Source of the DNA: Cladophialophora immunda
Taxonomy: Eukaryota > Ascomycota > Eurotiomycetes > Chaetothyriales > Herpotrichiellaceae
DNA: 64,000 nt
Assembly (NCBI RefSeq): GCF_000835495.1
Contig: NW_015622544.1
Coordinates: forward strand, 1,507,704 to 1,571,703
Direction: 5' to 3'
The notes under the pieces are model-generated. The model ran no database searches, had not been told where the DNA came from, and saw nothing but the letters and a program-made list of their open reading frames with translations. Below are positions 60,578-64,000 of the stretch, in pieces (the first letter of the stretch is position 1; each line of letters opens with the position of its first letter). A program made the translations under genes and the position numbers.

Positions 60578-62696
60578 TCAGCCATTCTGCATCCGCAGTA
60601 AGTGTTGGGCGCCCAGAATCGCTGGCTGATTGACCACTTCGACATGCTTGAACTGAAGCTCGGCCGCGTGCAAGGCTTCTTTGAATGCTTCGACGAAGAT
60701 TTTGCTCTGCATCAAGCCGCCGGCCAACACCAGGCTGGATGTCGCAGTATCACTTTGTCCAGATCTTGTGAGCGGATCAAGCAGCCGGACTAGGCTCTCG
60801 ATCGCTTTTTGGACGATATTCTTTGCTTGTGCATCGTCGGGACTGGCATCGATCACAAGCCGGGCAACATGCGCAATCTGTTTCTTTTTCTGCATGTCTG
60901 AGGAGGACGATAGCACGGCGCTCAGTAAGTCCAAGTCCTGTGTGTCTGTGCCATTCGCGCAGAACGAGTCGAAAATTCGTTGAACGAGCACATCTGGGAA
61001 GAACGTGCTGTCCGCATCCAAGCTCCGTCTTCGATTGTTGGCCTCGTCAGCCGCAGATAATGCAAGACGAACCGCCTGTCGCCCAATATCAAATCCGGAG
61101 CCATCGTCCCCCAGAAGATGACCCCAGCCTCCCGACCTCCCGACGCGGACGAACCGGTCTCCTCGACGTTGAAAAGTCATTGCAATCGAGCCAGTTCCGG
61201 CTACCAGCACAATTACGGAGTGGCTATCGTGCTTCTCCGCTGCCGAAGTCGCCAACAGTTCGATGTCATTTGTGACTTTCAATGTCGCCCCAAGAGGCCG
61301 CTTGAAGAGCTTCTCCAGCACGCGGTCGACGGTGACTGCGGTTTCCTTGCGGTCATGGCCAGCGAGGGCGATCCAGACGGATGAGAAGAGGCCAGGAGTC
61401 CACAGCCCTGCTCTGAGTCTGGAATGCGTGTCGCAGGCTCTTTGTATCGCTACCGATATTGACTGAGTGGCAGCCTCGATGCCGACGTCGGTTACATTGC
61501 AACCTGGGCCTTCGCCGTATCCTCTTTGACCATCTGCAGAGATCACGACTGCGGCGCATTTGCTTCCACCACCATCAACGCAGAGAACATATTCTAGGGC
61601 ACGGGTGTCGGTTGTTGTTTGACCATTCAAACCTCCATTAGTAGGCCTCTTCAGCACATTAGCCAGGACACCGCCGGCTTCTTCCAGGAGTGCCTTTGCC
61701 TCTGCTACTGAGGCTCCTAAGCCTAATGTTGCAATGGCGAGCTTGACACTTCCCTGGCAGTTTGAGAGAAGAGCATCCAGGCCGGCGTCCGAGTCGGGAC
61801 ACTGGGAGCCACAGATGGTCCGCAATATATTTCGAGATCGCAGTTGCAGTTTGACGTTTGTTGCTCGGAGATCAACCATCTGGCTTCGATCAGCGTCTTC
61901 TGATACAAGACATGTTGACGGCGGGGGTTGATTTCATACCATGTTTCCGTAAGTCTTCCCAATTTTGATCATCGTTCCCGTGCTGAGCATGTTGAGAACC
62001 AGCTTCGTCGCCGTACCGGCCTTCATCCTCGTGCTTCCTGTAACAACTTCAGGCCCGACAACAGCATCAATCATGAAATCCACATCCCCGCTGGTGCTCA
62101 TGGCAGAAGGCTGTGCGCAGGCCACGCCGACCGTTGCACAACCGAGACTCTTAGCATAAGACAGACAGCTCAAGACATAAGGAGTGCGACCAGACGCTGC
62201 GATGCCGATCAATGAGTCAACCCCGCCATTCACCTGGAGCGTTTTGAGATCTCGGACCGCGGCATCAAGGTCGTCTTCTGCACCTTCTTGTGCATTTCGA
62301 AGAGCCGTATCTCCACCGGCGATGATGCCCACAAACTGACCCTCGGGAGCGGAATATGTGGGTGGTATTTCTGAGGCATCCAAAACACCCAGCCTATATT
62401 ACCGGAATCGCGATCAGATATGGAATTCTCCTCCTTGTCGAAGTGCTCCTGGTGGCTTACCTTCCGCTGGTCCCGGCACCAACGTATACCACTCTGCCGC
62501 CAGCCTGGACTCTCGCCGCTAAGCAATCAATGGCCGCCGCTATGACAGGAATGCATCTCGAGACTGCCTCCGAAACAGTTGCGTCTTCTGCATTGATGAT
62601 GCGACAGAGCTCGATTGTTGGGATTTGATCAATATCAAGACTCTTTGCATTCCTTTGCTCGGTCTGCAATGCGACCAAGTTCTCGGATGTCTCCAT
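60578..62696 (-). CDS. MurQ-type MurNAc-6-phosphate etherase fused to BadF/NAGK-type sugar kinase
   Basis: Three exons: 62461-62696, 61940-62393 and 60578-61879 (introns 67 and 60 bp), giving 663 residues. N-terminal half (~1-305) is the SIS-fold MurQ etherase: [23 protein letters not shown] (joined across intron 1), [74 protein letters not shown]. Glu87 and Glu118 have the 31-residue spacing of E. coli catalytic Glu83 and Glu114. C-terminal half (~325-663) is an actin-fold kinase of the BadF/NAGK family: [13 protein letters not shown] (phosphate-1), [23 protein letters not shown] and [16 protein letters not shown]. MurQ cleaves the lactyl ether of MurNAc-6-P to GlcNAc-6-P and lactate; the kinase would supply the 6-phosphate. 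Animal GCKR is a regulatory MurQ relative, but the intact catalytic glutamates argue for an enzyme. No targeting signal. Confidence 0.93.
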
Positions 62697-63409
62697 GGGC
62701 TCTTGTCTTCCCTTTCTTCACCTCATCACTGGGCCATCCAGGCCGTTCGCCGCTTGCCAGCACTTTGAGCAAGAGACGAGGACAAAAGCAGCTCCCCAAG
62801 GTTGGAAATCCCACCCACCGGCTGAAGACATCTTTCCTTCTCTTCCAATCTCCCAAGATCCTACCGTATTCCGAACCTGGAAGATCCACTTGCACCAGGC
62901 GCGATTGTGATCTGATTTAATAATGGATTGTCACGCTCATCCCTCAATGCAACTCCAAGGACAATAGCGCAAGCTGAAATGGGCAGGCATGCGGAGAACC
63001 ACGCCCTGCATCAAGGACTCATGCCTCCGGCGACCGGCTGGGTGAGCCGGGTACATCTCCCGCAATGCTCATGTCGTCTTGAAAGCCGGTGGGGATCAGG
63101 CTTGTAGGCGGTTACCGAAGGATTCCACTTACCGCTAACCGTTGATCTCGTCCAGATGAAGCAAAAGTCCCCCCTCACCCCGTCAAGCCTTTCGCCTCAG
63201 CGATGAGCCTTATCAAAGGCTAATCAGGGCATTGCGGGTTGAGGAGAGCAAGTAGTCGATGTAACGGTATCCTTCGGGCTGGGAGATATCTGGATTGTTA
63301 CGACCATGTCGCCAATCTATATGCAGCTCCTTATATGGGCGTTGTCCATTGCGGAGCTCAACCATCTGTGCACTCCCTAACGATCCATTCGTGACTGCAA
63401 GTCTTCAAC
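62697..63409. promoter_or_regulatory. Shared divergent promoter, MurQ-kinase / UNC93-like transporter
   Basis: 713 bp between the two start codons. No gene supported; short frames only. It contains the inverted repeat at 63034-63050 and CTTATC (GATAAG on the other strand) near 63208, a possible nitrogen-regulator GATA site. Confidence 0.6.
63034..63050. promoter_or_regulatory. Inverted repeat CCGGCT-N5-AGCCGG, candidate operator
   Basis: A perfect 6-bp inverted repeat with a 5-bp spacer (GGGTG). It includes inverted CGG/CCG triplets 9 bp apart. It lies about 340 bp from the MurQ-kinase ATG and 360 bp from the transporter ATG, near the middle of the shared promoter. Suggestive of a dimeric zinc-cluster regulator site; unproven. 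Confidence 0.4.
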
Positions 63410-64000
63410 ATGGTCAAAGAAGAGGAGGCACAGGCTGTGCAGCCGGTTGAATCGCATCAGAGCAATGTTGAGCGAGCGGATGGCTCCCACTTCTCATCCG
63501 TCAAGTCCTTCTATGCGCACCCATGGACTCAGATTCTGCTCATCAGCCTGATATGCTTCTGTTGCCCTGGGGTAAGCATACCTGTATCCTACAGAGATAG
63601 ACGAAGAAGGCATGGTGACCTATCGTTAGATGTACAACGCACTTGGTGGTCTAGGAGGTTCTGGACAAGTCGATCCCACAGGTATTTGAAGCATGCCAAA
63701 TAGGTCAAGAGTCGTGTTATTGACCAGCCAGCACAGTCGCCGCGAATGCTACCGTCGCTCTCCTTTCCGCAACCGCCGGCACAGCATTATTCATAGTCGG
63801 TCCTCTCTTTTCCTACACTGGGCCTCGGATCTGCTTTTTGCTCGGAGGCTGGACGTATGCTCTGTACAGCGGCAGCCTGCTCAATTTCAACCGTAAGGAT
63901 GTTCGGTCCCGTGAAGGTACTTTCCTGACCAGTGCGCAGATCATGACAACGGCGCGTTCGTCATTGCATCCGGTGCTATTCTGGGCGTCGGTGCCTCGAT
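63410..64000 (+). CDS. UNC93-like MFS membrane transporter (partial, runs off window)
   Basis: Exons 63410-63571, 63630-63681, 63737-63892 and 63940 to beyond 64000; introns 58, 55 and 47 bp with GTAAGC, GTATTT and GTAAGG donors. About 143 residues are visible. After a ~37-residue cytosolic N-terminus: a first membrane span (WTQILLISLICFCCPG), the loop MYNALGGLGGSGQVDPTVAANATVA, a second span (LLSATAGTALFIVGPLFSYTG), a third (RICFLLGGWTYALYSGSLLNF) and the start of a fourth (GAFVIASGAILGVGAS). The CPGMYNALGGLGG(S)GQ pattern is typical of fungal UNC93-like (DUF895) members of the major facilitator superfamily, whose substrates are mostly unknown. Head-to-head placement with the MurQ-kinase gene makes an amino-sugar substrate an attractive guess. 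Confidence 0.87.

Follow-up and report, generated by a model that had tools for sequence, protein, structure and literature searches.

A spliced gene joining MurQ to a sugar kinase in Cladophialophora immunda and its predicted role in the salvage of a bacterial-wall sugar

In Tannerella forsythia, the murTKQ operon encodes a transporter, a kinase and an etherase that act serially on external N-acetylmuramic acid (MurNAc), and the kinase, a PF01869 member, is strict for MurNAc according to the accessible text of PMC5790795. Bacterial-type MurQ has also been found in eukaryotes, and the authors who described it in protists and ants tied it to bacterial walls; the available parts of these accounts describe neither a MurQ-kinase fusion nor a fungal MurQ (PMC7052976, PMC6925433, PMC13320244). 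Here, we describe a gene in a 64,000-nucleotide stretch of Cladophialophora immunda DNA (the window; contig NW_015622544.1) that joins MurQ to a sugar kinase in one protein. The serial scheme of T. forsythia is also proposed for the fungus, with the difference that T. forsythia uses separate genes while the fungus has one protein and an adjoining candidate transporter. Each domain, the bacterial murQ-kinase pairing and the MurQ of protists and ants are known already. What is new, as far as seen, would be a fungal two-step enzyme from bacterial operon partners, widespread, mislabelled and of predicted function; a literature search, with most subscription papers beyond its reach, returned no publication on a fungal MurQ-kinase fusion.

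We observed the gene structure, the domains, their invariant residues, the fungal clades among bacteria, the bacterial gene pairing and the downstream genes, and from these we infer the activities, substrate, uptake, nutritional role, direction of transfer and route of fusion. The protein is likely to be a bifunctional MurNAc kinase and MurNAc-6-phosphate (MurNAc-6-P) etherase, a salvage enzyme acquired from bacteria.

Structure of the gene and of its two domains

The C. immunda assembly comprises 42.2 Mb in 39 contigs. In the window, three exons form one minus-strand frame from an ATG at 62696 to a TGA stop codon that ends at 60578, and the spliced product of 663 amino acids has the same sequence throughout as CLAIMM_07343 of C. 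immunda (P0001). Both ends of the gene and the single spliced frame joining two domains had been given exactly in the initial annotation. The features are as follows:

62461-62696, minus strand: exon 1, from the start codon to R79, encoding the beginning of MurQ (splice reconstruction; product P0001)
62394-62460, minus strand: intron 1, 67 nucleotides (nt), GTAAGC...ATATAG (GT...AG), junction inside the invariant TSGR/LGV motif
61940-62393, minus strand: exon 2, MurQ core including both catalytic glutamates
61880-61939, minus strand: intron 2, 60 nt, GTATGA...CCAG (GT...AG)
60578-61879, minus strand: exon 3, end of MurQ, linker, entire kinase and TGA stop codon
61646-62681, minus strand: MurQ (MurNAc-6-P etherase, SIS) domain, residues 6-308, across both introns
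61594-61645, minus strand: linker, residues about 309-325, of low model confidence (predicted local distance difference test score, pLDDT, < 50 at 309-322)
60581-61593, minus strand: BadF/NAGK/MurK-type sugar kinase domain, residues 326-663
62369-62371, minus strand: codon of E87, first catalytic glutamate, invariant in 63/63
62276-62278, minus strand: codon of E118, second catalytic glutamate, invariant in 63/63
61265-61267, minus strand: codon of D435, kinase catalytic base, invariant in 63/63 and taken as D95 of T. forsythia MurK

Conservation was read from an alignment of 63 fungal fusions selected from the 120 matches shown for the full protein. The exon 1/exon 2 junction cuts the motif TSGR/LGVLD and is supported by conservation, since S77, G78, R79, L80 and G81 around it are invariant in all 63. 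The segment between residue 302 and D332, which spans the linker, measures 20-37 residues in these fusions.

Residues 6-308 form a complete MurQ, matched by TIGR00274 with 346.1 bits (E = 1.3e-103; equivalog cut-off 302) and by NF003915 (E = 1.4e-106), and TIGR00274 matched all 63 fungal fusions at E ≤ 0.001. In an alignment with Haemophilus influenzae MurQ, E87 and E118, which we take to be the catalytic glutamate pair of MurQ, were separated by the same 31 residues. Both are invariant among the fusions, as are S146, R148, T149, S199, T200, K203 and K209. In the entirety of the domain, the glutamate spacing and a score above the equivalog cut-off, the C. immunda MurQ resembles the bacterial proteins (H. 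influenzae, 1nri/4lzj; Yersinia enterocolitica, 4s12); unlike them, it is fused to a kinase, lies in a fungus and is interrupted by two introns. A second TIGR00274 match in the genome is weak (24.8 bits, G000:C3:4654689-4654922) and lies inside a 609-codon frame that perhaps encodes another SIS-domain protein.

Residues 326-663 form a complete BadF-type kinase (PF01869, 70.3 bits, E = 2.5e-19, cut-off 31.5); with the E values of the three family matches, chance is excluded for both domains. The catalytic D435 and the ATP-binding loops (D332, G334 and the GTG of G458, T459 and G460) were unchanged in 63/63 fusions, as were N358, A403, G404, R407, G481, W482, G483, D488, G490 and G617. Because the key residues of both MurQ and kinase are unchanged throughout, both halves look active wherever sampled. 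By sequence profile, the kinase is closest to Clostridium acetobutylicum MurK (8zo3), by a wide margin over other matches. Thus the initial annotation, which had read a complete MurQ with both glutamates at bacterial spacing and an actin-fold kinase of the BadF/NAGK type, held for each domain.

The names of existing entries would point elsewhere, to a regulator of the kind of the glucokinase regulatory protein (GKRP) rather than an enzyme: the Pfam match at the N terminus is called GKRP_SIS_N, and many fungal entries carry the automatic label 'glucokinase regulator family protein', although one Metarhizium entry names both domains. GKRP reportedly descends from MurQ. However, vertebrate GKRP has two SIS modules, no kinase and a first module without the first catalytic glutamate, and the fungal protein differs in all three. 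Its overlapping Pfam SIS matches are confined to residues 42-169 of one SIS domain with a MurQ fold; no second SIS module was found and the kinase stands in its place. Xenopus GKRP has Ser at the first catalytic Glu in module 1 (module 2 keeps Glu), and the fungal Glu is retained in 63/63. Furthermore, GKRP chains scored 54-67 bits against 258-264 bits for MurQ chains, and the TIGR00274 score lies above the MurQ cut-off. We therefore rejected membership in GKRP and regard a regulatory role as highly improbable; a catalytic MurQ rather than a GKRP had also been the reading of the initial annotation.

Bacterial gene pairs and descent of the two halves

A kinase-alignment scan over one genome per prokaryote species returned at least 528 relatives, and the best 80 loci were kept. 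In half of these loci of the nearest bacterial kinases (40/80), murQ lay in the same locus: upstream on the same strand in 12, downstream of the kinase in 27 and on the opposite strand in one. Same-strand partners were ≤ 300 nt apart in 36 of the 39 pairs. The order murQ-kinase, shared with the fungal fusion, occurred mainly in Planctomycetota and Chloroflexota, with one exception in Bacillota (L045), and the order kinase-murQ mainly in Bacillota.

The two genes are also fused in some planctomycetes. A frame of 648 codons (L094, genome G116) is open and shares 44% identity with the fungal protein across residues 6-508, and two more fusions have 632 codons (L113, G779) and 636 codons (L121, G758); a partial protein, P0198, also carries the fusion and is counted with the bacterial ones. 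These proteins have the same two domains in the same order and in one frame as the fungal protein; they differ in having no introns. In the order of genome G132, a full-length query, which favours matches running from MurQ into the kinase, matched 44 of 146 genomes, and in 10 of the 44 MurQ ran deep into the kinase in one frame (two without a stop codon, eight with one or two); an eleventh case, G864, was open to residue 344, close to a contig end. A search of the phylum with P0198 gave matches in 164 of 392 genomes; among the matches listed, G116 alone crossed the junction to the end of the query without a stop codon. At six further planctomycete loci (L111, L114, L115, L116, L117 and L122), the murQ and kinase frames are in phase with a single stop codon between them.

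A different arrangement was found in Chloroflexota, where a 725-codon frame (L100, G553) joins AnmK, recognised by sequence without a family search, to MurQ. AnmK acts on anhydro-MurNAc. Like the fungal protein, this fusion joins a wall-sugar kinase to MurQ, but the kinase is of another family and is placed N-terminally. The C. immunda protein is not of this type, as PF03702 was not among its Pfam matches at E ≤ 0.001. The view of the initial annotation that MurQ and such kinases are normally separate genes thus stands only in part: in bacteria the two are often neighbours and are sometimes fused, and the AnmK-MurQ frame is a further counterexample.

Each half was then placed in unrooted trees. 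The fungal MurQ halves, including those of yeasts and a basidiomycete, formed one clade (100/100) among bacteria, and so did the fungal kinases (100/100). The careful MurQ tree held 70 of 95 sequences, the first careful kinase tree 65 of 112 and a later kinase tree 56; sequences left out included long branches and near-identical ones, and the later kinase tree was built without L119 (uncertain frames) and without the fused L121. Bacterial sequences had been chosen by likeness to the fungal protein, so that sampling is biased, and no protists were included. The bacteria adjoining the fungi were Chloroflexota in a quick MurQ tree (support 91), Planctomycetota in the careful MurQ tree (78/87), two planctomycete sequences in the first careful kinase tree (98/93) and, once ten planctomycete kinases were added and other sequences changed, a group of the Ktedonobacteria/Thermomicrobia type instead (97/87). 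Because the nearest bacteria shift between trees and with sampling, we name no donor; every candidate donor group contains murQ-first pairs. In the 56-sequence tree, the fused planctomycete kinases of L094 and L113 stood apart from those of fungi. Their position speaks for a separate fusion event in fungi or for a fused donor outside the sampling. Within the fungal clade, the branch order agrees roughly with fungal classification, as would an old acquisition, but the yeasts did not form one group and the basidiomycete was a single long branch.

These trees make an ancient transfer from bacteria to fungi likely. With no root in the trees and long stems below the fungi, it is the breadth of the bacterial distribution, together with the gene pairing, that suggests the direction of transfer. 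In the proposed course of events, a bacterial murQ-kinase pair would have been transferred long ago, lost the intervening stop codon and gained introns. The initial annotation had likewise suggested a bacterial origin with later introns; such an origin is probable, and the gene carries two introns.

Predicted reactions and the substrate of the kinase

MurQ converts MurNAc-6-P into N-acetylglucosamine-6-phosphate (GlcNAc-6-P) and D-lactate. In the mechanism that we propose, the C-terminal kinase would transfer phosphate from ATP to the 6-hydroxyl of MurNAc, and probably of N-acetylglucosamine (GlcNAc) as well; the N-terminal MurQ would then remove the lactyl ether of MurNAc-6-P by elimination and hydration, yielding the two products above. 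A NagA-type deacetylase and a NagB-type deaminase would lead from GlcNAc-6-P to fructose-6-phosphate, and in this way the fungus would use a bacterial-wall sugar that it does not itself make. The initial annotation had proposed such a two-step enzyme and a diet of bacterial wall debris, of which the kinase activity on MurNAc and the growth on debris are predictions. The C. immunda genome has two NagA-like genes, one of which reaches the family cut-off together with its frame neighbours, and a clear NagB (398.6 bits).

By its sequence, the kinase may act on MurNAc or on GlcNAc. With the MurK proteins of C. acetobutylicum (8zo3) and T. forsythia (8oqw, 8ow9), the fungal kinase shares the BadF-type fold and the catalytic Asp, and with the former also the RSGGWGH motif; it is at most 25% identical to either, is fused behind MurQ, and its MurNAc specificity is a prediction. 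In T. forsythia MurK, S133, P134, L135 and T94, beside the catalytic D95, make space for the lactyl group; at these positions, bulky residues or Asn are usual in other kinases, and the authors see MurNAc fitting into NAGK without conflict (available parts of PMC10465942). Such space would call for a loop without bulky Glu or His and for a small residue at 94. The fungal loop matching residues 133-135 reads GGWG, like that of C. acetobutylicum MurK and NAGK. C. acetobutylicum MurK accepts both MurNAc and GlcNAc (accessible text of PMC5790795) and also has Asn before its catalytic Asp; Asn at the corresponding position 434 of the fungal kinase is thus compatible with activity on MurNAc. This residue, just before D435, is Asn in 40 of the 63 fusions (including C. 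immunda), Thr in 14, Ala in six and others in the remainder. As it is a reported specificity position and variable, substrate preference may differ among fungi.

A kinase that serves mainly GlcNAc or another amino sugar, with MurNAc-6-P as a minor substrate of MurQ, would make the protein part of general amino-sugar salvage, for example from the fungus's own chitin. The resemblance of the kinase half to GlcNAc kinases agrees with such a role; its score for the GlcNAc kinase equivalog NagK_SO3507 (NF046058) was 50.5 bits against a cut-off of 370. MurK, however, was its best profile match by a wide margin, and its partner is MurQ both within the fungal protein and in the gene pairs of bacteria. 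GlcNAc has a kinase of its own in hxk3. Filamentous ascomycetes already own a GlcNAc gene cluster that includes hxk3 and follows the same NagA/NagB-type route (PMC4950302, in its accessible parts), so that they can probably process GlcNAc without the BadF kinase. We regard this alternative as unlikely.

Rather than serving nutrition, the fusion might act on muramic-acid signals from bacteria, either sensing them or clearing them, for example by destroying a muropeptide-derived sugar in the hypha. Some fungi respond to muropeptides. The authors of the ant-genome study proposed an antibacterial use of transferred MurQ (available text of PMC13320244). Against this, GlcNAc-6-P has an onward route in C. 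immunda through the NagA/NagB-type genes, and no signalling domain was among the Pfam matches of the protein; we think such a role quite improbable.

Several points weigh against the preferred assignment as a MurNAc salvage enzyme of bacterial descent. C. immunda has N434 where T. forsythia MurK has Thr at its specificity position, and according to the accessible parts of PMC10465942, MurNAc would be hindered by a polar residue at that position, where most homologues have Asn; as said above, the kinase half also resembles GlcNAc kinases. In the predicted model, active-site loops of the MurQ half have pLDDT < 50 (residues 76-83, 107-110 and 195-200). The trees are unrooted and without protists, and the stems leading to the fungi, at 0.97 and 1.23, are long. 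In addition, an intron-blind genome search confined to the lysozyme families GH25 and GH24 among the wall hydrolases gave no match at E ≤ 0.001, which places the source of free MurNAc in doubt.

Distribution among fungi and surroundings of the gene

With 7999 candidates scored against the full protein, there are at least 119 fusions: of the best 120 matches, counting the C. immunda protein itself, 119 carry both PF01869 and PF22645, the exception being P0086. They include members of Fonsecaea, Exophiala, Capronia, Cadophora, Pseudogymnoascus, Xylaria, Coniochaeta, Metarhizium, Beauveria, Trichophyton, Aspergillus, Penicillium, Talaromyces and Zasmidium. The expectation of the initial annotation that similar sequences exist unremarked in other ascomycetes was right as to their spread; they are annotated, mostly under automatic names. 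The presence of the fused gene in many ascomycetes suggests that these fungi may be able to eat a sugar that they cannot make.

Other fungal proteins hold only one intact half. MurQ proteins without an intact kinase were found in Trichomonascus, in CTG-type yeasts and in one basidiomycete, Kockovaella. Kinase-only proteins occur in Sporothrix/Grosmannia (P0253, P0255, P0257, P0260 and P0262); the three of them placed in the tree (P0253, P0255 and P0262) nest within the fungal fusion clade, and their MurQ half has therefore been lost, separated or missed by annotation. In Purpureocillium lilacinum, a MurQ half (P0123) and a kinase half (P0309) have consecutive locus tags, PLICBS_005466 and PLICBS_005467, and are probably one gene split by annotation.

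In four yeast-like MurQ proteins (P0159 of [Candida] jaroonii, P0162 of Yamadazyma tenuis, P0157 and P0172), the MurQ part is followed by a tail of 128-138 residues. At the position of the kinase DGGG, the tails read DIVN, DILT, DIVD and DVSG, and the ATP-binding glycines are missing. In a profile comparison, the tails scored 22.2 against the kinase and ≤ 17.0 in 30 column shuffles, with an hhalign probability of only 3%. In the predicted structure, strands and helices follow one another in the tail as they do in the kinase N-lobe (mean pLDDT of the yeast model 61.3); in fold searches with the yeast models, the match lists were filled by MurQ, so that the tail itself lay outside their reach. 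The models and comparisons are suggestive only; we read the tails as a likely dead, truncated kinase remnant of the fusion; such a remnant would make the fusion older than the split of these yeasts from moulds.

It is conceivable, if in our judgement somewhat short of probable, that these proteins represent a bacterial-wall-sugar pathway that is ascomycete-wide and possibly Dikarya-wide: the murQ-kinase pair would have entered before the split of Saccharomycotina and Pezizomycotina, and been fused into a two-step enzyme that moulds kept under strong constraint; CTG-type yeasts would have lost the kinase except for a truncated lobe, catalytically dead, that remains behind MurQ. MurNAc is a hallmark sugar of bacterial walls, which make up a large pool of bacterial remains in soil. 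If moulds broadly carry the enzyme, carbon, nitrogen and lactate would be recoverable from bacterial debris. Many or most filamentous ascomycetes would then consume peptidoglycan sugar and so be linked trophically to bacteria in a way that has lain outside the scope of GlcNAc studies. This would matter for turnover in soil, for the gain that fungi draw from killing bacteria and for the life of black yeasts in poor habitats. A fusion of two consecutive pathway steps would have been retained over deep fungal time, and the misleading 'glucokinase regulator' label of many fungal proteins would be replaced by a testable function.

Downstream of the fusion gene, a convergent myosin-head gene ends at a distance of 490 nt. 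The other side is occupied by the following features:

62697-63409, no strand: 713-nt intergenic region that separates the divergent start codons and may be a shared promoter
63410-64000, plus strand: start of a divergent UNC-93/MFS-type transporter gene, which extends beyond the window end (L002 414-2118), candidate importer only

The divergent membrane protein matches PF05978 (45.7 bits) and PF07690 (44.7 bits, the major facilitator superfamily, MFS). It is a candidate MurNAc importer or simply a neighbour; a transporter sharing its promoter with the fusion would fit the uptake of MurNAc.

Elsewhere in the genome, C. immunda has two genes of the AnmK family (PF03702; G000:C5:3354027-3355205 and G000:C7:555041-556219). 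When the C5 gene was compared with solved structures, it scored 170 bits with levoglucosan kinase and 147 bits with AnmK. As the gene compared is nearer to levoglucosan kinase, we rejected the pair as evidence of wall recycling; both are perhaps sugar kinases of the levoglucosan-kinase kind.
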